Below, in pieces: positions 331 to 24,889 of a stretch of DNA of 24,889 nt (within the stretch, counting starts at the first letter, position 1; every line of letters begins with the position of its first letter). The DNA is taken from positions 1 to 24,889 of the IMG/VR virus record IMGVR_UViG_3300033273_000539. The stretch is one strand, 5' to 3'. Both the position numbers and the translations under genes were made by a program. This DNA is from a virus. The notes beneath the pieces are model-generated. The model was not told the DNA's origin and did no database searches. It saw nothing but the letters and a program-made list of their open reading frames with translations.

Positions 331-1814
331 TATATCTCCACCTTATATGTTTTATATATGAAGTTCTCAGCCTTGTACATTTTTAATCTTTCATAGGAAT
401 GCAATAAAGCAAAGTTTTGTTGGCTGGTACCGTAGGATAAGTCATCCGTGATATCGTACAATTGAGTGACTCGCCCGTCGTCTGATTTACGAAGACCACG
501 CCCGATGGACTGGAGGACTCTGATTTGCGATTTGCTGGGACTAGCGAAGATAATGTTATGAAGGTTACGAATATTAATACCAGTACTGAAGGTACCCAGT
601 GACGCGACGATGATAGCGTCTGACTGCTTTTCCGTAATCTTTCGTATAGCTTCACGATCCGAAGTTTCTGTTGCTCCAGATACAAAGAAAATTTTCCTGT
701 CATTGTGTGCTTTATCTCGAATTAGGTCAAATAGTATTTTACCATGTTTTTCTACAAATTGAAACAGAACAAGAGTATTACCTTTCTGATCAAGTGCTAG
801 GTTACGAATAAACTGATTTCGTTTCTCGTGCCTTACGATATAATCAATTTCATCTTGGTATGAGCGTTTTCCGATATCGGCTTTATCTTTGTATTCAAGG
901 ACAAGTCGTTTGATCTCGAGTTTTGCCAGAGTATCATTATCTTGTAGAGTTCGTGTGGTAGTGACTTTATGTACTCTTCCGAATAATCCTTGTAATACGA
1001 GTTCATGAGTTTGTGTCCCATCTAATGTTCCGGTTGTACCGAATCTATATTGTGCCTCAGTGCATTTATTCATAATAGTAGTCAGCGATTTAGATTTAAA
1101 TCCGTGACACTCATCGCCGATCACCATACCGAACTGTTCAAACCATGGTGCACCTAATTTATATATGCTCTGCCAAGTCGAAACAATAACGGATAACATG
1201 GTATCCTTATCCTTGCCAGAATAGATCTTATGGATATCATCTTGTCCGAAACCGTAATCAATAAAATCGTTTGTCATTTGCTCTACAAGAGATGTTGTAG
1301 GTACAATAATTAAAACTTTCTGACCTTCGGCTGCTAATTGACTTAAATAATAACGCATTAATACATAGATTATGAGTGACTTACCAGAACCTGTTGGTGA
1401 GAGTAGGATTGCACGGTTTCGTTCTAGTCCTTTACATACTGCATCAAACTGATAGTCACGAATCTCATAAGGAAGATGAATACTATGAACGAACTCCATT
1501 ATCTCTTGTGGATTTATCTTGGTGTAATTAGCAGCATTGTCAGGGTAACCATATTCAGTTCTTTCTGTATCTATGGTATAGCCACGTTGTCCAGCAAATT
1601 TCTCGAGATGCTCGATGAGACCAGCGGGTAAAGTATTGTTCCTAATATTGAACAAACGAATTTTACCATCCCATAACTTATTACGGAATGCAGGCATGAA
1701 ACGGTATCCTGGGACAAAAAAAGAAAAGAATTCATTAAGTTCCTGAGCTTGGCCAAAATCACAATCAATCTGTAACGTTGAGTGATCTAACTTTTTAGCT
1801 ACGATTTTTTCCAT
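330..1814 (-). CDS. uvsW: UvsW-type superfamily 2 DNA helicase
   Basis: This is a 494-aa ATP-dependent helicase of the T4 UvsW family. UvsW unwinds branched recombination intermediates, R-loops and stalled forks and moves T4 from origin- to recombination-dependent replication. Residues 10-85 match the T4 UvsW N-terminal DNA-binding domain (EFFSFFVPGYRFMPAFR, then LWDGKIRL). The helicase core follows: Walker A TGSGKS (141-146), motif II DECH (234-237), motif III near TGTLDG (261-266), motif V TFSTGIN (408-414) and motif VI QSIGRGLRKS (435-444). It is somewhat shorter than the T4 protein but has no visible gap in the core. The start overlaps the upstream NUMOD gene by 20 bp. No strong Shine-Dalgarno sits close to this ATG, so translation may depend on the upstream gene. 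The position after uvsY matches T4. Confidence 0.96.
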   Translation of the reverse strand: MEKIVAKKLDHSTLQIDCDFGQAQELNEFFSFFVPGYRFMPAFRNKLWDGKIRLFNIRNNTLPAGLIEHLEKFAGQRGYTIDTERTEYGYPDNAANYTKINPQEIMEFVHSIHLPYEIRDYQFDAVCKGLERNRAILLSPTGSGKSLIIYVLMRYYLSQLAAEGQKVLIIVPTTSLVEQMTNDFIDYGFGQDDIHKIYSGKDKDTMLSVIVSTWQSIYKLGAPWFEQFGMVIGDECHGFKSKSLTTIMNKCTEAQYRFGTTGTLDGTQTHELVLQGLFGRVHKVTTTRTLQDNDTLAKLEIKRLVLEYKDKADIGKRSYQDEIDYIVRHEKRNQFIRNLALDQKGNTLVLFQFVEKHGKILFDLIRDKAHNDRKIFFVSGATETSDREAIRKITEKQSDAIIVASLGTFSTGINIRNLHNIIFASPSKSQIRVLQSIGRGLRKSDDGRVTQLYDITDDLSYGTSQQNFALLHSYERLKMYKAENFIYKTYKVEI

Positions 1815-2172
1815 ATGTGTATTGATTGCTACCTTTTGGGATACTTATTCCGTATCTACTGCCGTTTCTTTTTACCCAAGTAGATATTGCACCAGGGCAA
1901 TACCCTAATTTTTCAGCTGTTTCTTTACCAGATTTGTATAATATACCTTCAATCTCAACCTCTCTAGACTTTGATTCTGCTCTTTTCTTTTTATGTTCTT
2001 CAGTTTGTGGTACACCAGTAATAGCTTTAGTGGCTGGTTCCCATCCGAGTGCAGAGCCCCATTTATCAAACCTAGCTCCTTCCATTATTTCTTTTTCAGT
2101 TATGATATCCCAAATGTTCCAATAAGTCTCTTGGATAAATTGTTTCGTAGGCTTATAGATAGTATTAGACAT
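1795..2172 (-). CDS. NUMOD-type homing-endonuclease remnant or orphan DNA-binding protein
   Basis: A 125-aa protein between uvsY and uvsW. Residues about 52-75 (ITGVPQTEEHKKKRAESKSR) resemble the NUMOD3 nuclease-associated module, which often follows the pattern G..(S/T)EE.(K/R)KK.. . Residues about 72-115 (IEGILYKSGKETAEKLGYCP, then AISTWVKRNGSRYGI) resemble NUMOD1, a helix-turn-helix DNA-binding module. Both are accessory parts of GIY-YIG and HNH homing endonucleases. I see no catalytic GIY-YIG or HNH motif in the N-terminal 50 residues. It is therefore either a decayed endonuclease or an independent DNA-binding protein. It has its own late-promoter box upstream, a good AGGAG ribosome binding site about 8 bases before the chosen ATG, and a 3' end that runs 20 bp into uvsW. 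Identification is by pattern only. Confidence 0.68.
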   Translation of the reverse strand: MSNTIYKPTKQFIQETYWNIWDIITEKEIMEGARFDKWGSALGWEPATKAITGVPQTEEHKKKRAESKSREVEIEGILYKSGKETAEKLGYCPGAISTWVKRNGSRYGISIPKGSNQYTYGKNRS

Positions 2173-3357: not shown

Positions 3358-4680
3358 TTACGCTAAGATGTTGTCTACGCGGAAGATTCTGTAGTATTGG
3401 TTAGTCTTGACTGCAGCAAGACCGTTAGCTGGCGCATTACCGACAAATGGGTTTGAAGCCATTCCGTAACGAGTCTTGAAGCCAATCTTAGGCTGGAACG
3501 TATCTTCTCCAACTGCACGAACCATTGTGAGTGGTACGTATGGGCAATAGAAGAGACCAGCGTCATATGGGTTAGTACCCTTATAACCAACAGTTACATA
3601 GTCTGTTGATGCATATGGGTCGATATAGACACGAGTACGTCCGTTAAGAACACCAGCGAATGTATTACCAGTGTCGTCAACATTCAAATTAGTTGACATA
3701 GCTGGTGAGTAGTCGAGCATACCAGAAGCAGCAAGTGCTGAAGCAACGTCAGAAGAACAAACAACGAAGTTGCCCTTACCACGACGAGTTTCTTTAGCGA
3801 TTGTATTAGCTTCTCTTTCGAGCTGTACAATCAAGCCCTTGAACTTCTCAACTGACCAACGACCATCAGCATCTGTTGACAAATCAAAGATACCGTTGAT
3901 TGCAGTATTGTCTGTTGCAGCACCAGTCTTAGCTTGTGAGTTAATAGTACGGATAACTTCACGGTTGATTTCAGCCAAGATTTCAGTAGACAGAATGTTA
4001 GCAAGTTCTGTCTCAGCATCCAAACCATGGATTGCTTTCAAATCTTGTGCCAATTCCAAGCTGTATTCAGCTTTCAAAGCACGTGACTTAGCAGTAACAG
4101 TTGCTTTCTCGATAGTGAAACCCATTTCTCCGAATGATCCACCACCGCTTGAGCCAAGAGCTTCAGCGTCTGCAGTTGCCAGACCAGTACCAGCAAGAGA
4201 AGTTAAACGCTGATCATCGATAGTTGAGTCAGCATCCGTGTCACTAACACCATTCAAACCTGAAGCGTTATCTGAATCGTGTGTTCCAGTACCTGAGAAC
4301 TGAGTTTCTGCTTCATTGAACAGAGCTTCACGATTAGCAGTATCACCACCAGCGTAGCGAGCCTTCATAGCGAAGATCAAGCCAGTAGGACCAGTCATTG
4401 GCTGAACACCACACACGTCATATGCCATCAAGTTAGGCATAGCACGACGAACAAGTGCAATCAGAACTGGGTTCCAGTTTGCAGCAGAAGTAGTGTTGTT
4501 ACCAGGCGCCGCTTCCGCGAGCATGCCAGAGTTTTGAGCAGCTTCTTCTTGGAACGCACGCTCTTGGTTTTCGAGAATTGCAGCCGTAACAGCTTTACGG
4601 TGCGCGTCTTGGATCTTACCAGCTGACTCGTTTTCGAGGACTGGAGACCACTTTTCGATCAAACGATCATATGATTCCAT
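3358..4680 (-). CDS. 23: Major capsid protein gp23
   Basis: A 440-aa protein that forms the hexameric shell of the head. It matches T4 gp23 closely: N-terminal LIEKWSPVLE and ILENQERAFQ (T4: LLNKWKPLLE, IFENQEKDFQ), and the signature VRRAMPNLMAYDVCGVQPMT (T4: VRRAIPNLIAFDICGVQPMN). It is shorter than T4 gp23 (521 aa), as in other marine T4-like phages. A probable gp21 cleavage site, consensus (I/L)xE, is MLAE ending at residue 56, which would remove a propeptide much as in T4. The ribosome binding site AAGGAG lies 8-10 bases before the ATG. Upstream gp22 is 18 bases away, and a strong terminator follows. No gene 24 (vertex protein) is present in the window. Confidence 0.98.
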   Translation of the reverse strand: MESYDRLIEKWSPVLENESAGKIQDAHRKAVTAAILENQERAFQEEAAQNSGMLAEAAPGNNTTSAANWNPVLIALVRRAMPNLMAYDVCGVQPMTGPTGLIFAMKARYAGGDTANREALFNEAETQFSGTGTHDSDNASGLNGVSDTDADSTIDDQRLTSLAGTGLATADAEALGSSGGGSFGEMGFTIEKATVTAKSRALKAEYSLELAQDLKAIHGLDAETELANILSTEILAEINREVIRTINSQAKTGAATDNTAINGIFDLSTDADGRWSVEKFKGLIVQLEREANTIAKETRRGKGNFVVCSSDVASALAASGMLDYSPAMSTNLNVDDTGNTFAGVLNGRTRVYIDPYASTDYVTVGYKGTNPYDAGLFYCPYVPLTMVRAVGEDTFQPKIGFKTRYGMASNPFVGNAPANGLAAVKTNQYYRIFRVDNILA

Positions 4681-6635: not shown

Positions 6636-6654
6636 ATTTCTGTTTATTCTTAAT

Positions 6655-6662
6655 TATTTATA
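6655..6662 (-). promoter_or_regulatory. T4-type late promoter box before the gp68-position gene and gp21-22-23
   Basis: A perfect TATAAATA on the minus strand lies in the gap between the broken small gene (ends 6675) and the start at 6635. Predicted transcription start is near 6649, giving a leader of about 14 nt. No other box occurs before gene 23, so this is the nearest visible promoter for gp21, gp22 and gp23. Confidence 0.72.
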
Positions 6663-6674
6663 TGTTTTAAGTTT

Positions 6675-6837
6675 TTAACCGACCCAAATTTGTACGTCAC
6701 CAGTTGTTTCTACTTCTGCTGTATAAATGTCAGTATCGGCCCCTGGCGGTAAACCCTTCTTGCTTCACTTTAGCATCGTTAGTCAAACTTCTAATAAACT
6801 TAGAAAATAATCTGTTTTTAGAACCTATTCTTGCCAT
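6675..6837 (-). pseudogene. Frameshifted small gene of the docking-segment family
   Basis: The ATG at 6837-6835 opens a frame for 35 residues (MARIGSKNRLFSKFIRSLTN, then DAKVKQEG), which then reads FTARGRY and stops at 6730. Removing one base from the GGG around 6760 joins it to the next frame, giving ...EGLPPGADTDIYTAEVETTG and DVQIWVG, with a stop at 6675. The downstream frame has no ATG, GTG or TTG start of its own, so a separate gene is unlikely. The total would be 53 residues. The N-terminus matches those of the 451-aa (8195) and 828-aa (19380) proteins, and the end QIWVG resembles QIWYG, which ends the 135-aa protein. It is either a real one-base insertion, a sequence error, or less likely a programmed +1 shift. 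It starts 3 bases after the stop of the 451-aa gene. Confidence 0.72.
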
Positions 6838-6839
6838 AA

Positions 6840-8195
6840 TTAACTATTCCCAAGTTGGCTGATTGAGCCGTTGTGTTCGACATACAAATATCCATTCGCA
6901 TATGCTAAACCAGCTACCACACTTGCCGATGAGTATTGACCAGTATATGTTAATGTAGTATGATCATTTGCGGTTGAAAGATCGAACTGATATATCTTTG
7001 ACGTGCTGGTACCAACCCAAACTCGAGTTCCATCATCGTTAGCAGCAACCGCGGTTACATTCCATGTATTAACTGGTGTAAGACTTCTCAAATCTATATT
7101 TCCTTCTGGATTGCCAGCAAAGGAATTCAGATCATATGCTGTATTCATTTTATGGATATGCAATCTTTCACCGCTTGTTACACCATAAAAAGCACTACCA
7201 TCCTTTGTAACATCCCAGAAGTTACTATTAGTATTGAGATATAAATAAATATTGTTTCCTTGTTGTGTCTGATTTGGCGTCTGACTTACATGACCAGGAT
7301 AATCTGTATTACTTGAGGTCTGACCAAATCTAATCATTCGTGCGTACGAATAGTTTGCCATAAATGCTTGTGACAAATCTGCAGAAACTCTAATACCACC
7401 AATAAAGTCATCATTATATGGTGAACCAATACCTGTATACTGGTCGGTTTGTTGTGATCCAGCGGTAGATACATCATATGCCGTTGACATTGTCCAAATA
7501 TGAACATTTGCCAAGTTATCTGCTTGTAACAGATAATTACCATCCTGTGTAACTTCAATACCTTGTTCACCAGAATTTGTAATATTACTAGAATTAACTA
7601 AGGTTACTGTTGATGTTACATCAAATGATGATACACCGCTACCATATGTAATACTAAAATCTGCTGAATCAGTATCAAATGAAATACCGTCGGAAGCTTT
7701 AAACGTGATTGTAAACGAACCACCATTTGAATCATAACCAGCTGTTAAAATATCGGCCAGTGATTTTGCTGTAACCGTAAATGTTCCATCAGAATCATTT
7801 GTAATAGTAGCTAATTCATAGGCAGAATCAGATGTACTATATGTCCAAATGATTGGAGTTCCATCTGAATCTGATGCACTAATTGTAATTGAGGTTGCGG
7901 TTCCACCATTAGAGTCAAGCGAATAACTTGCACCATCAGGACCGCTGTCAATACTTGGATTTAAGTTAACAAGATTAACATTATACCATCCAGATCCGTT
8001 TGAAATAAACAGGCGGTTAGATGCCCAGGCTTGATCACCATTAGTAAGTCCACTAACAGGAAGTAAACCAGCAGAGTCATATGCAGTAACGCCACCACCG
8101 CTAGCACCGGACGAAAGTCCGGTGTCGGTTAGGTTACCGTCTGTATCAATATCTCTTGCAAGTTTACTTAGCAATCTAGCCTTGGAATCCGGCAT
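6840..8195 (-). CDS. Modular adhesin-like virion protein inserted in the head cluster
   Basis: A 451-aa protein. Its parts, by eye, are: a docking segment at 1-27 (SKARLLSKLARDIDTDGNL); a glycine/serine linker; a YDSxGxLP module at 38-78 (YDSAGLLPVSGLTNGDQAW, ending GWYNVNLVN); an Ig/cadherin-like domain at about 84-185 (ISASDSDGTP, then ITFKASDGI); and a C-terminal region at about 190-451 with repeated strands and WTMSTAYDVSTAG / HKMNTAYDLNS motifs, as in beta-propeller or WD40-like virion proteins of marine phages. The first three parts match the 828-aa protein. It is inserted between gp67 and the gp68-position gene and joined to gp67 by TAATG, so it is likely a head or neck decoration or a host-binding protein. 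The function is inferred. Confidence 0.85.
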   Translation of the reverse strand: MPDSKARLLSKLARDIDTDGNLTDTGLSSGASGGGVTAYDSAGLLPVSGLTNGDQAWASNRLFISNGSGWYNVNLVNLNPSIDSGPDGASYSLDSNGGTATSITISASDSDGTPIIWTYSTSDSAYELATITNDSDGTFTVTAKSLADILTAGYDSNGGSFTITFKASDGISFDTDSADFSITYGSGVSSFDVTSTVTLVNSSNITNSGEQGIEVTQDGNYLLQADNLANVHIWTMSTAYDVSTAGSQQTDQYTGIGSPYNDDFIGGIRVSADLSQAFMANYSYARMIRFGQTSSNTDYPGHVSQTPNQTQQGNNIYLYLNTNSNFWDVTKDGSAFYGVTSGERLHIHKMNTAYDLNSFAGNPEGNIDLRSLTPVNTWNVTAVAANDDGTRVWVGTSTSKIYQFDLSTANDHTTLTYTGQYSSASVVAGLAYANGYLYVEHNGSISQLGNS

Positions 8196-8512
8196 TATTC
8201 GTCCTCAAGATTACCTTCGAGCGGATTATCAGGCCACTCTTCTTCGTCTTCTTCTACCTCAGCATCTTCGTCTTCGACTTCTAGATCTTCTTCATCTACG
8301 TCAAATTCGTCATCTACTTCAGGCTCAGGCTCTTCGCCGTTATAGATCTGACTCGCGATACCAATCTTCATTTGATTCAAGGCATCAGCCATCTTTTCAC
8401 CCATAATATTATTGAAAATATCTGAAGCACTTGTGTAATCCTTATTAGTAGCGGATTGCACTAAATCCTCAATCGGGTTTGTTTGTACTTCTGTTTCTTC
8501 AACATCACTCAT
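8195..8512 (-). CDS. 67: Acidic prohead core protein gp67
   Basis: A 105-aa protein directly after the portal gene. The start chosen is the ATG at 8512 (MSDVEETEVQTNPIEDLVQS), because AAGGAG lies 6-10 bases before it and it overlaps the gp20 stop by only 8 bp. The longer frame from 8548 would extend inside gp20. The N-terminal half is a helical segment (IFNNIMGEKMADALNQMKIG, then IASQIYNGEE). The C-terminal half is almost all Asp and Glu, the pattern of T4 gp67 (PIP), a core protein involved in prohead shape and cut by gp21. Position between gp20 and the gp68/gp21 genes agrees. Its stop overlaps the next start (TAATG). Confidence 0.9.
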   Translation of the reverse strand: MSDVEETEVQTNPIEDLVQSATNKDYTSASDIFNNIMGEKMADALNQMKIGIASQIYNGEEPEPEVDDEFDVDEEDLEVEDEDAEVEEDEEEWPDNPLEGNLEDE

Positions 8513-10013
8513 CGTCTTCTCCTTGTTCTGGCGTTTGTTCGCCTTCACCGTTTATTTGATCCTGCATTTGTTCAATTTGTTCATCATTAAAATGTAGGAT
8601 ATTCTTCATTACCCATTCTTTAGAGAAATATTCCCCAACATAATTTTGTACTTGATCTAAAGATTGTAATTTTTCTCTGAGAATCTCTGCATCTTTCAAT
8701 TCTGCAAAATGATTATCTTTTGCATATTCAATAATAATATCAGATTTCCAGTTATTCCAGTCTTCTTCTGTAATAATACCTTTCAGAATTAATTGCTTCT
8801 TCAAGATATTTACAAACAATTGAGAGAATCTACGACGAAGTCTATCTACAAACTTCTGGAACTTCAATTCATCTCTTGTAATTTCTGATGAACGACCTAA
8901 CGAGAACTGAGCTTCTTGCTCAAGTCGATTGATAGGTACATTCAATGCACGATACATCTTCTTCTGGAAGTATACGATGTCATCAATCTGACCCAGGTTT
9001 TCACCACCTGGTAATGTTGAGATCTCTGTACCTCTACCACCCTCGCGACGTGGGAGCCAGAAATCTTCAAGCAATGACATATGTTTACGATCATCACGGA
9101 TCTCACCAGTCTTTGCATCATAAACAAGTTTATTACGATATCTTGTCATGATATCTTTCATGTACTGTTCTGATTTACCTTTTGGTAGGTTACCTACGTC
9201 AATATAGAAAATACGACGCTCAGGCGCACGAGCAAGACGATAGATGACAAGCGAGTCTTCCATCATTCTTAACTGGTTAATTGGCTTTAATGCTTTATGA
9301 AGATATGATACAATCTTTTTACGATCTTCGTTTAACAGACCGGACGTAACATATGATACAGCATCTTCAGTTAACTTAACACCACCTGATTGCTGTGAAC
9401 CTGGCTTTTCTTGATAGATGAAATACTCATCTACTTTCTCAATTAACTTTGCACCAGTCTGTTGATCTGTTTTTGTTTTGACTTGTTTTACTTTACGGAT
9501 CTTTGATGAATCAATAGGACGAATCTCTTTGATTCCCTGTTTTAAGTTTGATTCATCAACTACTAGATGATGATATAATCTACCATCAACATACCATCTA
9601 CGGAAGATATCGTGACCATAGTCACCAAAATCTAACATACCATAGACGTTATCGAATTCTTCTTTGATTTGCTTTTTGATTGAATCTGAAACATCAATAT
9701 TGTCCATATTCAAATCGACAATCATTTCAGCATCTGAGAGTGTAACTGCTTCATTCACAATTTCTTCAATTGCTTGGTCAACCTCTGGGTGCATTGCTAC
9801 ACCACGATACTGCATGATTAATTGATAATTATCTTTTGAATCATCACCGTCAATATTTAAGTATTGACCATAATGCATTCCAGATGCGGTGACGTATCCC
9901 GCACCATCATCATCACGTGCAGGAACAATCGAGGCTTTTTTCTTCGGATCTTCTGCCTCGGCCTTTTTGATTTCAAAGCCGAATAATTTTAAACTCTTTC
10001 CGTTCTCTGCCAT
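8505..10013 (-). CDS. 20: Portal vertex protein gp20
   Basis: A 502-aa protein that forms the dodecameric portal through which DNA enters and leaves the head, and that starts prohead assembly. It has the T4 gp20 signature series: RAPERRIFYIDVGNLPKGK (about 251-270), MTRYRNKLVYDAKTGEIRDD, EDFWLPRREGGRGTEISTLPGG, and ALNVPINRLEQE followed by RSSEITRDELKFQKFVDRLR. Length is close to T4 (524 aa). The C-terminus is short and acidic (EGEQTPEQGEDDE). A terminator hairpin lies between gp19 and this start, yet no TATAAATA box is visible in the 61-base gap. Its promoter must be elsewhere or divergent, or transcription reads through. The ribosome binding site before the ATG is TAGGAA. Confidence 0.97.
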   Translation of the reverse strand: MAENGKSLKLFGFEIKKAEAEDPKKKASIVPARDDDGAGYVTASGMHYGQYLNIDGDDSKDNYQLIMQYRGVAMHPEVDQAIEEIVNEAVTLSDAEMIVDLNMDNIDVSDSIKKQIKEEFDNVYGMLDFGDYGHDIFRRWYVDGRLYHHLVVDESNLKQGIKEIRPIDSSKIRKVKQVKTKTDQQTGAKLIEKVDEYFIYQEKPGSQQSGGVKLTEDAVSYVTSGLLNEDRKKIVSYLHKALKPINQLRMMEDSLVIYRLARAPERRIFYIDVGNLPKGKSEQYMKDIMTRYRNKLVYDAKTGEIRDDRKHMSLLEDFWLPRREGGRGTEISTLPGGENLGQIDDIVYFQKKMYRALNVPINRLEQEAQFSLGRSSEITRDELKFQKFVDRLRRRFSQLFVNILKKQLILKGIITEEDWNNWKSDIIIEYAKDNHFAELKDAEILREKLQSLDQVQNYVGEYFSKEWVMKNILHFNDEQIEQMQDQINGEGEQTPEQGEDDE

Positions 10014-16893: not shown

Positions 16894-19380
16894 TTACGAT
16901 GTCGCCTGATATGTTCTACCTTGAGTTGCAGTAGGTGCTGTAAAGTTTGTGGTGTACTTAGCGGTATCTTTGAGGATTTGTACATTTTCTAAATAACCAT
17001 ACATTTCTTCACCGATAGCACCAATAGTATCACCAATTCCAAATGCTTCAGCTGAATAATTTGCAGTTGATGAATAGCTACTACCAACTTGTGTTCCATC
17101 AATATATGCTTTAATTACGCCACTCGATCTAACAAATGCAAAATGATACCAAGTATTTGTCGATAGCTGGTTAGTCGCTTCGATCTTTCTAGAAGAACTA
17201 CTCACTTGGTCATACCATACAACATCACCAGATGCATCAGTTCCAACATTAAATCCTGTACTACCTCTTGTGCTACTTACCCACGAGATCCAGTCTACTA
17301 ATGATGTATGATATGCCCATCCTTCAATTGTAAAATCACCTGATCCCAGACCACCCGGAATAGTTGTCGTAATATAATCACCAGTACCATCAAAATACAT
17401 CGCAGTATCAGCAAACTTAGTCTGAGTAGTAGAAGTTGCAGTATTTCCTACAGGTGTTAGAGTATTATTCCCAGTTATATCGTAGATACCTGCGTTGTCC
17501 ATTGAGAGGTACAAATCGGCATTAGTGTTTCCAACTGAAGATGTTGGTGGGGTAAATGTTGAAGTGTATATTGCTGTACCAACAGAAATTTTAAAATCTG
17601 AAATCCATCCAAGGAATGGCTGGACTGTTCCAGTATGACGTGAATCACCGATACGTATATCAGTGCTACCTATATTACCACTTACTGTTCCGCTATAAAG
17701 CGAATCACCATTTTTATATAGTGTTAATGTTGTTCCGCTTCTTACAATTGCAAAATGATGCCATTCATTAATAGTAAAATCAGCACTAGGTGAATAATGA
17801 CTTGTACCATTAACATATAAATTATCATATGGAGCGCTACCACCGATTCTAAATAGGATCCCATTAGTATAGCTTCCTAATTCAAATACAGTACCGCCGT
17901 TATTTTTTTCAGTTTGGTATAACCATCCTTCTATTGTAAAGTCACCTGTTATTGATGATATATTAGTAATATCTAATCGTGTACTAGCATTATTATAATA
18001 TGATCCTTTATTAGACGTATCGCTATATTCAGATGATTGACCATATAATGTAAATGGACTAATTTGTGGCGTACCACCACCAGTAGCAAATGTCGTATCG
18101 TTTGTTGAATTATCTTTATATCGTGCATCCTGCAAACCTAAGAATACAGTTCCACTCATTGTTGTGAATGGATCTGTACTAGGAGTAAAATTATCGCCAT
18201 ATTTAAAATCAGATGCACTGGTCGAACCACTAGCCCGAATATGCAAATTAGTCATGTATCCTTTAAAGAAATTAGAACCGCTCCCACTTCCAAGATTGGC
18301 ACCAATAAATGCAGCAGATGCACCAGAACCTAAACTTACCGATGAACTAAAAGATTCTTTCCATGAACCGTTCAGATAACCCTTTAATTCGGTACCACGT
18401 CTTTCGAAACAAATATGATTCCATTGTCCAGGGATTACAGCATTGTTTGCACTATAATTAAATGTATATGATGTTACTGCATATAATGCTAGTTGACCAC
18501 TAGAATTTAAACCAACATTAAATGGAGTCGCAGAGGCTGATGGTCTACAATCTAATAAAGTACAAGCACGGATTTCATCCGGCCAAATCCACATTTCAAT
18601 TGTAAAGTTATTTGTTCCAATTGCAACATTAGACATATCCGCCTTAAAATAATCACCATCGCCATCAAAGTAAACACTGTAATTATCCAGATACGGATGG
18701 AAGGCAGATTGTATTGGCGTTCCAGTTGTTGTTACTGTGTGAGCATTAGTAGATCGATCAATAAATGTAGAATTATCTAATCCATCAGAATCAGATGTTC
18801 CAATGCTTAATGCAACATTCTTCCATTGACCTGACACAAAATTTAACGTAAACGTTTGTGCAGCTGAAGATACTACATTAATTCCATCAGTAGCTTTAAA
18901 GGTTAGAGTACCAGACGTTGCTGTTCCTGCTGAATCTTGACTGAAAGGTGTAATCGTAAATACGCTTGAATCCTGGCTCAACGTAGCAATACTGTCAAAA
19001 CCAGTACCTTTAATTACGCTATAAGTGATTGGATCCCCATCAGAATCTGCTGCAGTAATTGTAATCACTGTTTGCGTAGATCCATCGTCTGCTAATGTAA
19101 ATGGTGTTGTACCACCATCAGAATCTGTAATACTTGAAATATTTGGTGCTGTATTAATTAGTGCAATACTATACCAACCAACAGAATCCCAAATGTACAA
19201 TCTATTGTTTGACTGCACATAAGCTTGATTACCATTATCATTGCCAGAATATGGTAACGAGCCAATTGAATCATATACGGTTACACCTGGTGTTGTAGCA
19301 AGTGCACTTGTAGGCAACTTACCAGAAGTGTTTACCGATGATGCAAATTCGCTTAGAAATGAATTCTTACTTTGTGCCAT
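16894..19380 (-). CDS. Large LamG-domain virion adhesin
   Basis: An 828-aa protein with the following parts by eye. Residues 1-27 are a docking segment (SKNSFLSEFASSVNTSGKL). Residues 34-78 are a YDSxGxLP module (VYDSIGSLPYSGNDNGNQAY, ending GWYSIALINT). Residues 85-182 are an Ig/cadherin-like domain (ITITAADSDGDPITYSV, then LTFKATDGI). Three concanavalin/LamG-like units follow, at about 185-425, 440-630 and 640-820. Each shows the pattern '(Y/S)xYFDGxGDY...FTIE(M/G)W' and a later 'W(N/H/Y)H(I/F)(C/A)F.R...LK.Y..G'. Examples are FTIEMWIWPDE, FTIEGWLYQTE and FTIEGWAYHTS. LamG domains often bind glycans, so a role in host-surface binding or head decoration is likely but inferred. No signal peptide or membrane segment is visible. 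The upstream 135-aa gene ends 3 bases before it. Confidence 0.9.
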   Translation of the reverse strand: MAQSKNSFLSEFASSVNTSGKLPTSALATTPGVTVYDSIGSLPYSGNDNGNQAYVQSNNRLYIWDSVGWYSIALINTAPNISSITDSDGGTTPFTLADDGSTQTVITITAADSDGDPITYSVIKGTGFDSIATLSQDSSVFTITPFSQDSAGTATSGTLTFKATDGINVVSSAAQTFTLNFVSGQWKNVALSIGTSDSDGLDNSTFIDRSTNAHTVTTTGTPIQSAFHPYLDNYSVYFDGDGDYFKADMSNVAIGTNNFTIEMWIWPDEIRACTLLDCRPSASATPFNVGLNSSGQLALYAVTSYTFNYSANNAVIPGQWNHICFERRGTELKGYLNGSWKESFSSSVSLGSGASAAFIGANLGSGSGSNFFKGYMTNLHIRASGSTSASDFKYGDNFTPSTDPFTTMSGTVFLGLQDARYKDNSTNDTTFATGGGTPQISPFTLYGQSSEYSDTSNKGSYYNNASTRLDITNISSITGDFTIEGWLYQTEKNNGGTVFELGSYTNGILFRIGGSAPYDNLYVNGTSHYSPSADFTINEWHHFAIVRSGTTLTLYKNGDSLYSGTVSGNIGSTDIRIGDSRHTGTVQPFLGWISDFKISVGTAIYTSTFTPPTSSVGNTNADLYLSMDNAGIYDITGNNTLTPVGNTATSTTQTKFADTAMYFDGTGDYITTTIPGGLGSGDFTIEGWAYHTSLVDWISWVSSTRGSTGFNVGTDASGDVVWYDQVSSSSRKIEATNQLSTNTWYHFAFVRSSGVIKAYIDGTQVGSSYSSTANYSAEAFGIGDTIGAIGEEMYGYLENVQILKDTAKYTTNFTAPTATQGRTYQATS

Positions 19381-19383
19381 GTC

Positions 19384-19791
19384 TTATCCGTACCAAATTT
19401 GATTGGGGCCTGTATCTGCTGCTGGTGTTTCGCTTTCAACAGTTGTAGTAATCTTAGATGAAAATATATCTCTTTTATGAACTGATGTTACAATACGAAT
19501 TGTTTCATCAAATACATTACTACCATTTACTTTGACAGCATGTGTCTTATTTGTAATTGGGTTATAGTGATTCCATTCACCATCCCGTGCAACCGCATGC
19601 TCAACAAGCTTTCCATCTTTAGTAGTAGGCGATATTACTATCGATGTAAGATGAGTTTCCTCAGTCATATCTGAGTCAGTTATAGAATGAATAATAAAAT
19701 TACGCTCTGTAAAAGGTTGACGCGCATTAAGGTTTATCTGATGATAAGCGTTGGCTAAGCTATAATGTTTATTATTACGGAACTCACTCAC
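19384..19791 (-). CDS. Small virion-region protein of unknown function
   Basis: A 135-aa protein that I do not recognise. It begins MSEFRNNKHYSLANAYHQIN, continues with strand-like segments (RNFIIHSITDSDMTEETHLT, then SIVISPTTKDGKLVEHAVAR), and ends PAADTGPNQIWYG. The final QIWYG resembles the end QIWVG of the frameshifted small gene at 6675-6837. No catalytic motif, membrane segment or signal peptide is seen. It overlaps the 643-aa gene upstream by 4 bp and is followed after 3 bases by the LamG gene, so it belongs to the fibre/adhesin operon. A chaperone, connector or minor fibre role is possible, but there is no direct evidence. Confidence 0.83.
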   Translation of the reverse strand: MSEFRNNKHYSLANAYHQINLNARQPFTERNFIIHSITDSDMTEETHLTSIVISPTTKDGKLVEHAVARDGEWNHYNPITNKTHAVKVNGSNVFDETIRIVTSVHKRDIFSSKITTTVESETPAADTGPNQIWYG

Positions 19792-21719
19792 TGTGACTGA
19801 ATCTCCACAACTTTAACTTCAATATGACCATTATCATTAATTGTTAACGTTTCAGTAACATCTGCAGTTTTTGATGTAGTTACAGTTTTAGTCTTTGTGC
19901 TATTATCAAACAACGCAGGGCCAACAATCTGTAGCGTTAGATCTGTTTCTACATTTGAATCAGTTGCATCTTGTGCTGAAATGCTCAGCGTATTAGTAAT
20001 ATCTGATCCAGCATATGTGACGTAATCAGAATCAGTTGTAACACTAACGTTATATACTAAATCTTCTGCCCAGACCTGTAAAGGAGTAGGAGCATGCCAA
20101 TCAACTGCAGCTGAACCCACTGCAAAATCTTTTTCCCATTCAGCTGTTATTACCTTACCACTTGGCATCCACATTACTTGGTTAAATACAGTATAATGAT
20201 CATACCAGACTTCTGACATCGTTTCGGCAGATGTATCAAACTTAACGACATGAGTTGAATGTTTTGTAAATACCATCATGATAGTATGCTCAGTATTCAA
20301 TGGAGCAATACACCACGGTGCAGCATCGTAATCATTTACTAAATTCGGAGACGTAGTTAGAATATCGTTCCACTTTCCATATGTACCAGAACCAGTTAGG
20401 GCAGTTAGAGTAGCCGCGTTACTTGCGGATATCTTCATAATCATATACGGTCTATCGTGCGACTTACTATATGTTCCGTTATTTACAACAGTCGCAAATA
20501 AGTATTTTTGAGAATCTATCGCCTGAGATGCGCTAATAATTCTAAGATCTAGAATATATTCTGGTCCAAGCAATGAAATTGCAGCGCTTACCCTTTGATC
20601 TTGCATATCATCGTCTGCATTATTTACAGACGGTACAGTATGTGAAGCAGTACTACGCGTAATGGTAGCAGCATCAATATCCATTTCAATAAGATATATT
20701 ATATTATAAGCAGGTGCATCAAATATTCCAGTCCCAAACCGCCAATAGTAACATATTTTTTTACTAGTAGTTGATTCAGCTGATTCTTGGTGATATACCA
20801 CATTCGATGGAACTGACATCGGATAATAATACTGCTGAGAATTTCCTATACCAGTATATTCTTCTGTAATACTATTTGCAGAATTATCGTATCTTAAAAT
20901 ATCTACGTTCATATTACTGCCGCCATTAGTAGAACTACCTTCATGGGCAAGGAAAAAATGATCTCCGTTATTACACTTTGTTAAATGGTGAATATATGAA
21001 CAAGTACTACTAGTGCCGTATAATTCAGTCTTAGTAACTGTACGTAAGTTTTGCTCAGTAGTATAATTAATAACAGCTAATTGTTGGCTGTGCTGGGTAG
21101 TGCTACCATGAAGTTGTCTAAATAACATACCAGAGCTTGTTTCAGGATCAATAATATTGAATCCATACTCAGAAGCCTGAGCTCTGTATGTACCAATCAT
21201 ATAGCACATTTTTCCATCAGCTCCATCATAATGAGCCCTTGCGCCTGAATTGTGCGTATATGTCCACATTCCAAGGTATTCGTCAATTGTATGATTGTAG
21301 TGCCAAGTTTTTAGCGGATGATCAAGCCAGTCTCTGTGCCATAGTGCAGTATTACAATTTGTTGCATGCTGCATCATAATCGAACCATCAGTAGATTGAT
21401 TCGAATAATCGGATTTAGCTGCCCTTGAAACCATTGGATAATTTGGTGCCATAATTGCACCCGCATATTGGCTTGCAGCATTATCATTATGCCAAATGCC
21501 AAAATAGTAGATATCGTCATCATCTATTACGGTCCAAGTTTTATCTGTATTGACCGAATGATTTCCAACCCAATTCATTACCCGCGAACCAATTTTTGGC
21601 GTAAAGGTATCAATGTCAAATAAAATGCCATTAATTACAATATCTTTTGGATATTTTACATCTTGCCAAACAGACGGAAAAGAAACATTTTGACCAGCTC
21701 CGTGTGCAATATAAGCCAT
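19788..21719 (-). CDS. Large virion-type protein of unknown function, candidate receptor-binding protein
   Basis: A 643-aa protein, unusually rich in His, Trp, Tyr and Met for this window. The N-terminus (MAYIAHGAGQNVSFPSVWQD) leads into a long region of spaced hydrophobic strands (KMCYMIGTYRA, HFFLAHEGS, KKICYYWRFG, KYLFATVVNNG, TIMMVFTKHS, VITAEWEKD). The regular spacing suggests a beta-propeller of perhaps six or seven blades. Residues about 555-643 look like an Ig-like domain (YVTYAGSDITNTLSISAQDA, then LTLQIVGPALFD, TKTKTVTTS). Several cysteines lie in the propeller-like part (NCNTALWH, CSYIHHLTKC). It sits between fibre and LamG genes, so a host-recognition or fibre-tip role is plausible. 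Fold and role are inferred, and no family is recognised with certainty. Confidence 0.85.
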   Translation of the reverse strand: MAYIAHGAGQNVSFPSVWQDVKYPKDIVINGILFDIDTFTPKIGSRVMNWVGNHSVNTDKTWTVIDDDDIYYFGIWHNDNAASQYAGAIMAPNYPMVSRAAKSDYSNQSTDGSIMMQHATNCNTALWHRDWLDHPLKTWHYNHTIDEYLGMWTYTHNSGARAHYDGADGKMCYMIGTYRAQASEYGFNIIDPETSSGMLFRQLHGSTTQHSQQLAVINYTTEQNLRTVTKTELYGTSSTCSYIHHLTKCNNGDHFFLAHEGSSTNGGSNMNVDILRYDNSANSITEEYTGIGNSQQYYYPMSVPSNVVYHQESAESTTSKKICYYWRFGTGIFDAPAYNIIYLIEMDIDAATITRSTASHTVPSVNNADDDMQDQRVSAAISLLGPEYILDLRIISASQAIDSQKYLFATVVNNGTYSKSHDRPYMIMKISASNAATLTALTGSGTYGKWNDILTTSPNLVNDYDAAPWCIAPLNTEHTIMMVFTKHSTHVVKFDTSAETMSEVWYDHYTVFNQVMWMPSGKVITAEWEKDFAVGSAAVDWHAPTPLQVWAEDLVYNVSVTTDSDYVTYAGSDITNTLSISAQDATDSNVETDLTLQIVGPALFDNSTKTKTVTTSKTADVTETLTINDNGHIEVKVVEIQSQ

Positions 21720-21946
21720 TATGATACCTCTATAGTTAAATTATCTGAATCGATTTCAGCATATAAGCCTTTAGTTGATAAATGATCGTTCCAAAAAGTT
21801 AGCGCATCACTGCCATCAATCCAGTCTCTTTTATCTGAATCTCCAACACCTGGCCGAAACGGCTGCTTCAAAATAAGAGCATTAGTATGATCACTATCAT
21901 CTAATACTAATTCTAAGGCATTGTTAACGAATCTTAATGTATACAT
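21719..21946 (-). CDS. Small conserved-looking protein in the fibre operon, function unknown
   Basis: A 75-aa acidic protein (MYTLRFVNNALELVLDDSDH start, LYAEIDSDNLTIEVS end) with three Asp-Ser-Asp motifs. It lies between the tail-fibre gene (stop 3 bases upstream of its ATG) and the 643-aa gene. Its stop shares one base with the next start (TAATG pattern), so it is expressed as part of the same message. The size and site, right after a long fibre gene, would suit a fibre-assembly helper or fibre cap, but nothing in the sequence proves this. No motif is recognised. Confidence 0.75.
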   Translation of the reverse strand: MYTLRFVNNALELVLDDSDHTNALILKQPFRPGVGDSDKRDWIDGSDALTFWNDHLSTKGLYAEIDSDNLTIEVS

Positions 21947-21949
21947 TTA

Positions 21950-24889
21950 TTACTCTTCCGCATATGTTATAATCAAGTTGAGATCAGAACCAGCAGTTGT
22001 TGATCCGATCTGTGTAATATCTACAGTGAGATAATCAAACTGACTAACTGATAATGATAAACCAGTATTTGTATCAGAGTCACTACCTGCAGCAATCGTT
22101 TGTGTATCAATTGCTGAACCATTCTTATTTAACGTTGTTATTAATGAACTACCAACTGGAGCAGTTCCGACAACAGCCGTTACTGTAGATATATTTATAT
22201 TCCTTGGAGAAACCCATCTAGCAGTGCCAGTGGTCACTTCCAATGTGCCAATCTGATTTAGCTGTAAATATTTATTCGCGTCAACTCTTGCTTGTACGTA
22301 AGCACTATCAACTAGATTTGTTACGGCCGATGAATCTAGACCCGCGTCTCCAGCTCGAGCTAATACATAAGCTGAATCAACAGTACTTGCAATTTCAACT
22401 GCAATCTGTGCTGAATCAACGGAAGCGCCAGCGGTAATGTTAAATGCTGTAATTACATCAGAATCAGCTGCAGCTTCAGTTAATGTAATTGAAGAACCGT
22501 TTGTTGCAGTGTAGTCAACGCTATCAACAAGTAAAATACCGTTTGCAAATACTACAAGTGAATGCGATGAATATAATAGTGAGTTACCATTATCATCTGC
22601 ACCACTAAATACTGTATCACCAGAATCAGCAGTAAATACGTAAGTTCTTAATCCACGCTGTGTACCAGCTACTGATGAAATATATGCGCTATCAACAATT
22701 CCTAAAACTCCAGCAGAATCTAATCCACCACCGCCACCACCAGTTGTTAATTGACGTGCCTGAATGTATGCGCTATCAACTGTACTTTCAACAATCGTGA
22801 CAACAGTTGCTGAGTCAGTTCCGGCTGAAGTTCTTGCAGATACCCATGCAGAATCAACAGTTTCACCATTTAATGATAAGTAAGTAAATTCACCAGAATC
22901 AGCTACTGCTTTACCAGTAACAGTAATACCTGTAGTTGATGTTTCGAATTTCTTAGATGCATTATGATACAATTCAACAGAACTATCTTTATTAAAGATA
23001 GCCATATCTTCAGCATTACCATCATGTGTAATCTTAACAGCAATACCATTTGTATCGAGTACTAAATTACCTGCACCAAGGTCTCTAACAAAACTATTTG
23101 ATCCGCTATGATAGATTTGGAAATCAGAACTAGCACCAAAATGAAGACGTTCTGCATCACCCCATCTAATAGTTTTTACGTAAGCACTATCGATTAAACC
23201 AAGAACTGCAGCAGAGTCGACACCATCACCCACTGATCCGGTAAATGATACAATACTAATGTTATCACTTGCATTTGCATCATTAGTAAGAGTAATACTC
23301 GTACCATTCGTTGCAGTGTAGTCATCGCTATCGACAAGTAAGATACCATTTCTAAATACCTGTACATTACCAACAGCATATGATAAAGTAGTACCCTTAT
23401 CATCAGCACCACTGAATACAGTATCACCTGAGTCTGCAGTAAATACAAAGTTATTTGTAACAACACTTCCGCCAGCAATACTCTTGATAATTGTGACTTC
23501 GTCATTAGCTAATAGCGATTCACCAAGAACAACACTCGTACCATTCGTTGCAGTGTAGTCAGTGCTTCTTAATAATACACCATTAAGATATACTGCGATT
23601 GAGCCAGCTGTATATGATAGCGTATTGCCATCACTGTCTGCACCAGAGAATGTAGTATCGCCTGAATCCGCAGTATAGTAGTAAGCGTAGATTCCTCTAA
23701 CAGATCTATCTTCGAGAAGAGTTAACGCAGCTGCAGAATCCAATCCACCAGACCCAACTGATGATTGCCTTGCTTGAACATAGGCTGAGTCAATTAAATT
23801 AATAGTTGCAGAAGAATCTAATCCTCCTGATCCAACATTAGATTGGCGAGCTTGAATATAAGCACTATCAACAATGCCAGTTACAAATCCTGAATCTCTT
23901 TGTTGATCATTTGTTGTAATTAAAGATATGACATTAGCAGAATCAAGTATTGTTGGAGTACCAGTCAATGAACTATATGCAAAGTCTTGTCTAGCCTGTA
24001 CATATGTCGAATCAACTAATGATGTTACATCAGAGTTACCGTAAGTACTAATATCAGAGTTGTTTGCTAATTGTACCCAACTTCCAGCATGTGCGAAGTA
24101 TCCAGCACCTGTCGCATGAACATGGGCAAACATACCATGATATGTTGATGCACTTGGCAAAGCACCGACCGAATCATAAACATTACCAAACAGTACTTTG
24201 TTACCGCCCATATCAAGATCAGATCCAGTAATAACACTTATCACATTAGCCGAATCTAATACTGTAGGAGTTCCAGTTAGTGAACTGTATGCGAAGTCTT
24301 GTGCAGTTTGTCTAGCTTGAACGTAAGCAGAATCAATAATTCCAGTTGTTGCAGCTGAATCTAGTTTTTGTCCAATTAATGTTACAAGAGTTGCATAAGC
24401 CGAATCGTCATCATTCAACGCAGCTGCAATTTCATTCAAAGTATTTAATGTACCAGGTGCACCATCAATTAGATTATCAATTGCAGTAGTTACAAATGCA
24501 GTCGTCGCAATTTGAGTTGTATTAGTGGTTGAAGATGCCGTTGGAGCAGTTGGTGTACCAGTTAGCGCAGGACTTGCAAGAGTTGCGTATGATGAAAGCA
24601 TACCACTCGCATTTGCAGAGTCAAATGTGCTGTAATTCGCATCATTTGTGAATTCACTTACATTTGTTGGTGCACCAGTTAGCGAACTATATGCAAAATC
24701 TTGAGCGGTTTCTCTAGCTTGGACATATGCACTATCAATGATATTTGTTACATTACCAGAATCAAGTATTGTTGGTGCACCAGTCAGTGAACTATATGCA
24801 AAGTCTTGAGCAGTCTGACGAGCCTGCACATAAGCTGAGTCAGCCGTACTTTCAATAATTGTAACAACAGTTGCTGAGTCAGTTCCAGC
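21950..24889 (-). CDS. Repetitive tail-fibre-like structural protein, 5'-truncated by the window edge
   Basis: At least 979 residues are encoded, and the frame is still open at base 24889, so the true start is outside. A GTG at 24829 is internal (part of AYVQAR) and not a start. The protein contains about a dozen DSAY(V/I)-type repeats, four followed by the DFAYSSLTG(A/T)PT unit. It has a classic phage-fibre repeat (ALTGTPTAPTASSTTNTTQI, then ATTAFV), a YDSVGALP module, and three copies of an about 65-residue domain beginning (F/Y)TADSGDT.FSGAD. A marine-phage fibre domain (LGAGNLVLDTNG, then NAEDMAIFNKDSSVELYHN) precedes a conserved C-terminal domain ending LNLIITYAEE. A glycine linker (GGGGG) lies near base 22730. 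It probably forms an extended trimeric fibre for host contact. Confidence 0.92.
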   Translation of the reverse strand, partial: AGTDSATVVTIIESTADSAYVQARQTAQDFAYSSLTGAPTILDSGNVTNIIDSAYVQARETAQDFAYSSLTGAPTNVSEFTNDANYSTFDSANASGMLSSYATLASPALTGTPTAPTASSTTNTTQIATTAFVTTAIDNLIDGAPGTLNTLNEIAAALNDDDSAYATLVTLIGQKLDSAATTGIIDSAYVQARQTAQDFAYSSLTGTPTVLDSANVISVITGSDLDMGGNKVLFGNVYDSVGALPSASTYHGMFAHVHATGAGYFAHAGSWVQLANNSDISTYGNSDVTSLVDSTYVQARQDFAYSSLTGTPTILDSANVISLITTNDQQRDSGFVTGIVDSAYIQARQSNVGSGGLDSSATINLIDSAYVQARQSSVGSGGLDSAAALTLLEDRSVRGIYAYYYTADSGDTTFSGADSDGNTLSYTAGSIAVYLNGVLLRSTDYTATNGTSVVLGESLLANDEVTIIKSIAGGSVVTNNFVFTADSGDTVFSGADDKGTTLSYAVGNVQVFRNGILLVDSDDYTATNGTSITLTNDANASDNISIVSFTGSVGDGVDSAAVLGLIDSAYVKTIRWGDAERLHFGASSDFQIYHSGSNSFVRDLGAGNLVLDTNGIAVKITHDGNAEDMAIFNKDSSVELYHNASKKFETSTTGITVTGKAVADSGEFTYLSLNGETVDSAWVSARTSAGTDSATVVTIVESTVDSAYIQARQLTTGGGGGGLDSAGVLGIVDSAYISSVAGTQRGLRTYVFTADSGDTVFSGADDNGNSLLYSSHSLVVFANGILLVDSVDYTATNGSSITLTEAAADSDVITAFNITAGASVDSAQIAVEIASTVDSAYVLARAGDAGLDSSAVTNLVDSAYVQARVDANKYLQLNQIGTLEVTTGTARWVSPRNINISTVTAVVGTAPVGSSLITTLNKNGSAIDTQTIAAGSDSDTNTGLSLSVSQFDYLTVDITQIGSTTAGSDLNLIITYAEE
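22446..22636 (-). repeat. TADSGDTxFSGAD domain, copy 3 (C-terminal)
   Basis: The third copy in protein order of an about 65-codon unit: FTADSGDTVFSGADDNGNSL, then VFANGILLVDSVDYTATNGS and ITAF. It shares the GDTxFSGAD start and the (D/T)YTATNG(T/S)S motif with the copies at 23242-23443 and 23487-23677. This unit is common in marine phage fibres. Confidence 0.85.
22776..22825 (-). repeat. 50-bp direct repeat, copy B
   Basis: Encodes GTDSATVVTIVESTVDS. It matches 24840-24889 at about 44 of 50 bases, in the same orientation and reading frame, about 2.06 kb apart. Differences are mostly silent third-position transitions. Confidence 0.8.
23242..23443 (-). repeat. TADSGDTxFSGAD domain, copy 2
   Basis: The middle copy of the about 65-codon unit: FTADSGDTVFSGADDKGTTL, then VFRNGILLVDSDDYTATNGT. 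It is the most similar to copy 3 in its NGILLVDS core. The DNA stretch coding TATNGTS is nearly the same in copies 1 and 2. Confidence 0.85.
23487..23677 (-). repeat. TADSGDTxFSGAD domain, copy 1
   Basis: The first copy in protein order: YTADSGDTTFSGADSDGNTL, then VYLNGVLLRSTDYTATNGTS. It is separated from copy 2 by only about 14 codons, so the first two copies form a tandem pair. Confidence 0.85.
23745..24838 (-). repeat. DSAYVQAR repeat array of the fibre shaft
   Basis: Six DSxY(V/I)QAR units lie here. Four carry the longer form continuing to DFAYSSLTG(A/T)PT, starting near 24838, 24735, 24335 and 24015. The last of these lacks the TAQ tripeptide (QARQDFAYSS), an in-frame loss of three codons. 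Two further units near 23875 and 23795 share QARQS(N/S)VGSGGLDS. Further degenerate units (such as VDSAYVLAR, DSAYIQARQ) continue downstream to about 22290. Confidence 0.85.
24840..24889 (-). repeat. 50-bp direct repeat, copy A
   Basis: Encodes GTDSATVVTIIESTADS at the window edge and is the partner of the copy at 22776-22825. It may extend beyond the window. Confidence 0.8.

Follow-up and report, generated by a model that had tools for sequence, protein, structure and literature searches.

As described in PMC7029224, pelagimyophages and cyanomyophages carry their fiber genes in a hypervariable host-recognition cluster between VrlC and the neck gene gp14, and carbohydrate-binding domains occur among the structural proteins of that cluster. 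The locus analyzed here resembles the cluster in that fiber genes occupy a hypervariable island surrounded by conserved T4-like structural genes, but the gene of interest lies elsewhere, in a small second slot flanked by the gp67 and gp68 positions. The counterpart of the VrlC-gp14 island in our DNA is probably the stretch upstream of position 16894. Closer at hand are the fiber genes of L005, L013, L015, L113, L115 and L140, which open with the same N-terminal module (N-module) as our gene, lie mostly in the same slot and, where it is visible, share the same downstream late promoter. They encode 70 to 682 residues in one frame, whereas the present gene breaks after about 28-36 codons and has its second part in another frame. 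Programmed +1 frameshifting is known from genes such as prfB. Like genes of the prfB type, the one described here has two overlapping open frames that are joined in the +1 direction, but no shift motif, stimulator or conservation was seen in it.

The gp67-gp68 slot and its surroundings

The window is a 24,889-base IMG/VR virus record, a metagenome contig that represents a fragment of a T4-like marine phage. Its minus strand carries the genes for the neck, terminase, sheath, tube, portal, a gp67-type core protein, protease, scaffold, capsid, UvsY and UvsW. The portal, protease and gp67 names are backed by PHROGs matches, and those of UvsY, UvsW and gp67 by Pfam; the genes that we take to encode the neck, terminase, sheath, tube, scaffold and capsid were recognized from their sequences. 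Between UvsY and UvsW lies a 125-aa gene (1795-2172, minus strand) with weak similarity, below the cut-offs, to a helix-turn-helix and to the I-TevI DNA-binding domain, which is possibly a homing-endonuclease-type insertion or a fragment of one; in L003, UvsW directly follows UvsY, with no counterpart of this gene in between. The stretch of interest, 6675-6837, is located between a 451-aa adhesin-like gene and a 69-aa gene, with the following features:

8195..8548, minus strand: prohead core protein of the gp67 type, which flanks the slot upstream (phrog_1064, 2.2e-9; Pfam GP67, 1.1e-5, 26.2 bits, just under the cut-off of 27)
6840..8195, minus strand: intact 451-aa fiber/adhesin-like gene with an N-terminal module of the same kind, first gene in the slot (sequence comparison)
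6754..6837, minus strand: first 28 codons of the two-frame gene, matching the N-terminal module common to the relatives' fiber genes in the same slot (homology searches, shuffles, profile)
6730..6837, minus strand: frame-0 open reading frame, 35 codons and then TGA at 6732-6730 (reading frames, codon model)
6733..6764, minus strand: overlap of ~32 nt that must contain the +1 frame change, with consecutive rare, G+C-rich codons whichever frame is read (frames, codon model)
6675..6755, minus strand: downstream part in the +1 frame, coding-like and startless, the last 9 codons and stop of which resemble the C-terminus of a 135-aa family (codon model, C-terminus comparison)
6636..6674, minus strand: conserved spacer with a T4-type late promoter, TATAAATA, downstream border of the slot (alignment; T4 late promoter TATAAAT as given in PMC3037559)
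6426..6635, minus strand: conserved 69-aa gene in the gp68 position, flank of the slot (found in 22 loci)
19384..19791, minus strand: 135-aa gene with the C-terminus TGPNQIWYG, putative cassette counterpart of the tail of the two-frame gene (family comparison)

The gp67-type gene and the 69-aa gene enclose a fiber-exchange slot, and the two-frame gene sits in it, downstream of the former and upstream of the late promoter that precedes the latter. Many relatives have nothing in this slot, and others have one to four long fiber genes there. After four of the 22 loci with the 69-aa gene were left out because they start inside or too near it (L008, L018, L019 and L024), the upstream side could be read in 18, where the gp67-type gene stands directly before the promoter region in 10 and a fiber-type gene in 8. 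The TATAAATA block forms the 3' border of the slot in all 14 aligned sequences, empty-slot loci included. The spacing between gp20 and gp21 (portal and protease), counted only in loci with both genes and after 70 of these had been collapsed to 62 by their slot ends, is at most 753 bp in 50 of the 62 distinct loci. Among the 12 wider loci, N-module fibers lie in the slot in the window, L011 and L012, and the other nine have other genes, or genes beyond gp67 or beyond the 69-aa gene. By eye, genes of metabolic appearance (sugar-nucleotide transferase-, aminotransferase- and nitroreductase-like) lie between gp67 and gp21 in L096, L103, L042 and L049.

The contents of the slot differ from phage to phage. 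L113, which belongs to the record of L004, has three complete fiber genes and one more that is cut by the end of the locus but complete in L004; its 682-aa fiber and the 348-aa protein encoded next to its portal gene found only distant partial matches in phages. The phage of L003 (locus L067, on the same contig), the closest relative, has a protease identical to that of the window by alignment, and its slot contains genes of 413, 496 and 70 aa in addition to a giant fiber. The slot is empty in the cultured phage C48C1 (Kyanoviridae). When GTDB genomes were searched for the 69-aa gene, the one locus that turned up, in a Lachnospiraceae MAG, was unconvincing, and comparison of the 451-aa protein and the N-module with the PDB gave nothing useful (best E 0.41, an ice-binding protein). 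A distal fiber gene of the same slot in L012 (3489-4980) has likewise lost its frame, near 4145, where one of its internal repeats apparently suffered a short deletion. This second broken gene fits a slot where genes decay, with the caveat that repeats also trouble assemblers.

Two coding-like frames in one small gene

On the minus strand, the gene starts with an ATG at 6837-6835. The +1 frame has a TGA at 6767-6765 and is then open from 6764 to a TAA at 6677-6675, a stretch without ATG, GTG or TTG. Given this TGA and the frame-0 stop at 6732-6730, a +1 move anywhere from 6764 to 6733 joins the two parts into a reading of 53 codons, with 28 coherent codons in frame 0 followed by about 25 in the +1 frame. 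The original prediction, made from the letters of the DNA, had described these two parts at these coordinates and had noted that the second has a stop upstream in its frame and no start of its own; both observations are borne out. It had also proposed that one base of a GGG is skipped, of which the +1 direction stands and the exact site is less certain: in a codon model trained on 24 window genes, the GGG near 6755 is the optimum for the change, but only by about 1 log unit above its neighbors and 6 above the worst position. As the margins across the overlap are this small, the candidate site is not fixed to one base. The rare codons in the overlap are GGG, AGG and CGA.

Both parts look coding. 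For the 28 upstream codons, frame 0 leads the other frames by margins of 2.7 to 9.1 log units. In the downstream part, the +1 frame of the 26 codons exceeds the best of the five alternatives by 6.78, a value reached by 32% of true-frame segments and by none of the 4,000 wrong-frame open segments in each of five frames. Of Markov random sequences, 13% stay open, and 0.7% of the open ones reach 6.78. The downstream part derives, with high confidence, from coding sequence.

Origins of the two parts

The upstream codons match the starts of relatives' fiber genes in 4 of the 26 records searched, with E values from 3.6e-8 to 8e-4 (best match per record). Local alignment of the N part against the first 40 residues of 11 N-module genes of at least 364 residues gave scores of 34-75, which none of 2000 shuffles reached for any of the 11. 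On a profile of 19 N-modules, built without the two-frame gene itself, the N part alone scores 29.3 bits, and it carries the N-module pattern M-x-(S/R)-(K/R)-N-R-x-(F/L)-(S/A). Compared to the N-modules of L013, L005 and L113 (L115 was left out), codon positions 1 and 2 are identical at 13-16 of 20 sites and position 3 at 7-10 of 20. That the third position differs most indicates that the N-module had been under protein-level selection. On these sequence comparisons, homology of the N part to the fiber N-modules appears virtually certain. Searching with a DNA pattern for the beginning of the N-module returned 16 stretches; one was the known L005, and none of the other 15 runs on as an N-module protein.

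The residues that follow the N part in the +1 frame raise the profile score from 29.3 to 35.1 bits, which is equalled by 41 of 1000 shuffles, or by 184 of 1000 when the one leucine is held; the frame-0 residues after codon 28 bring it to 30.3 bits. Similarity to the N-module apparently extends a few residues beyond the frame change, which speaks for a one-base change in a continuous gene and not for a break at a joint. Short N-module proteins also exist in intact form, namely one of 70 aa that L003's phage has in this slot and two of 77 and 154 aa in L115, in addition to proteins of 63-89 aa with weaker N-module matches in other loci; a short gene is therefore not abnormal in itself. Intact short proteins (63-85 aa) that open with the N-module or a weak match were seen at 8944-9156 of the reverse complement of L140, L115:1329-1562, L016:8889-9146, L066:9044-9235 and L068:4081-4272.

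The tail resembles a different family. We compared the last nine residues with 829 distinct gene C-termini from the loci collected, after dropping the small window-locus copies L001 and L002. The best matches are the three members of the 135-aa family (window 19384-19791, L131 and L115/L132) with scores of 32-33, the next being 13, and none of the 826 non-members scores as high against the family. The tail has the conserved Q(I/L)WxG of this family before the stop, but the gene lacks the conserved family core (THxxSIVIS..TKDGKLVEHxVARDG). Shuffles give p values of 0.002-0.003 for the tail against the family, uncorrected for the other comparisons made, and the link comprises about nine residues only; the match gains nothing from the 16 residues with which the C part begins (p 0.29-0.49). 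The 135-aa protein and its C-terminus had no matches in phages, and a DNA pattern for the last residues of the two-frame gene found none. An origin of the tail in a 135-aa family gene is supported but not proven. We also considered whether the tail could be the latter half of the N-module domain (YDSAG..LP...GDQAW); this was set aside as the weaker reading, as shuffled tails score as good or better in 778 of 1000 cases and the 135-aa family is clearly the best C-terminus match.

A precedent for both ends in one place is found in L115, where a cassette running from an N-module gene to a gene of ~135 aa that ends in ...QIWIG directly follows gp67, in this slot and in this order. The same cassette, of a fiber gene and genes of ~75, ~643 and ~135 aa, was observed at L115:5001-8030 in the gp67-gp68 slot and at 19384-24829 of the window, in the large fiber island upstream of the neck gene. 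Fiber cassettes seem to move between slots.

Readings of the frame break

The reading that we favor, with some confidence, is that the two-frame gene is what is left of a collapsed fiber cassette, fused by deletion, out of frame, dead and yielding no single joined protein. The ancestor would have carried an L115-like cassette after gp67, composed of an N-module gene and then genes of ~73, ~644 and ~135 aa. A deletion of roughly 3 kb, to which we give even chances, would have taken nearly the whole cassette and joined the beginning of the N-module gene to the final codons of the ~135-aa gene, leaving a chimera of 53 codons; the presumed order of these events is the one given here. The one-base offset would have been created at the joint or by a later one-base change. 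Because the 16 residues before the tail are unlike the 135-aa family and the N-module similarity passes the frame change, the frame break may be a one-base change separate from the deletion joint. We found no parental sequence similar enough to reveal the joint. The gene as printed stops after 35 codons, a fiber body was found in no frame, and the chimera would yield only a 35-residue peptide with unrelated end residues, so that no fiber is expected from it; its function is probably lost.

Another history, in which a normal N-module protein of about 53 residues was hit by a natural one-base frameshift with no large deletion, is possible but doubtful. It accounts for the coding-like character of the whole C part and for the gain from 29.3 to 35.1 bits with the +1-frame residues, and intact short N-module proteins (70 aa in L003's phage, 77 and 154 aa in L115, 63-89 aa elsewhere) provide models for such a gene. 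However, IMG/VR patterns and the phages tblastn search revealed no relative of this size and tail, and the tail resembles the end of another gene family. As the first half is the anchor module of longer fiber genes and the tail is like another family, a collapsed or chimeric slot gene explains more than a one-base hit. The original prediction of an inactivating mutation in a small gene is thus kept for the inactivation, but not for a stand-alone gene, since the N half comes from long fiber genes and the tail apparently from another family. Should the break be a sequencing or assembly error, the gene would be intact in the phage; we consider this improbable. The window is a metagenome contig, and neither IMG/VR patterns nor the 26 records contained a second copy of the stretch, but the reading frames of the 24 other genes used for the model are intact over 23 kb, so that a random indel in so short a stretch is unlikely. 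Moreover, the site is not a long homopolymer, and the corrected gene would still be an odd short chimera.

Readings in which the break does no harm fare worse. The 35-codon open reading frame could be a working small protein with the downstream coding-like stretch as old debris; its ATG directly follows the stop of the fiber gene and its module resembles intact short proteins, but after codon 28 frame 0 misfits both codon usage and the N-module profile (30.3 versus 35.1 bits), and its chances are slim. Very slim is the chance that a short N-module stub is kept at the distal end of the slot as a homology landing pad for fiber cassettes or as a mini-anchor protein, of which the short genes of 70 aa in L003's phage and of 77 and 154 aa in L115 would be further cases; for a landing pad, the frame break would matter little, since the module's DNA is what gets used. 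A programmed +1 frameshift that yields a 53-residue protein is barely credible, although the frames overlap and both are coding-like. No fold beyond shuffles was detected in three stretches (z -0.11, 0.45 and 1.10), and the region had no Rfam match; some known +1 shift sites need no stimulatory structure. The overlap 6733-6764 contains rare codons (GGG, AGG and CGA) but, to our knowledge, no known shift motif. No homologue spanning the frame-change site emerged from the phages tblastn search, IMG/VR patterns or the 26 records searched. For the 53-codon reading, the best tblastn hit in phages (E 6, a DNA polymerase) is a chance match, IMG/VR patterns gave 34 stretches with no relative among them, and PHROGs and Pfam held no homologue. 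With no fold, no Rfam match and no homologue that has the site, inactivation is far likelier than programmed shifting, in agreement with the original preference for mutation or error.

Under the favored reading of a collapsed cassette, the gene would be an ordinary scar of fiber-gene gain and loss and not a new mechanism, and it is unremarkable as a frameshift. It also advises caution, in that two coherent frames at a site of gene exchange need not mean programmed shifting. For the biology of these phages, it suggests that, in addition to the known host-recognition island, fiber genes are exchanged at a second slot, located between the gp67 and gp68 positions.
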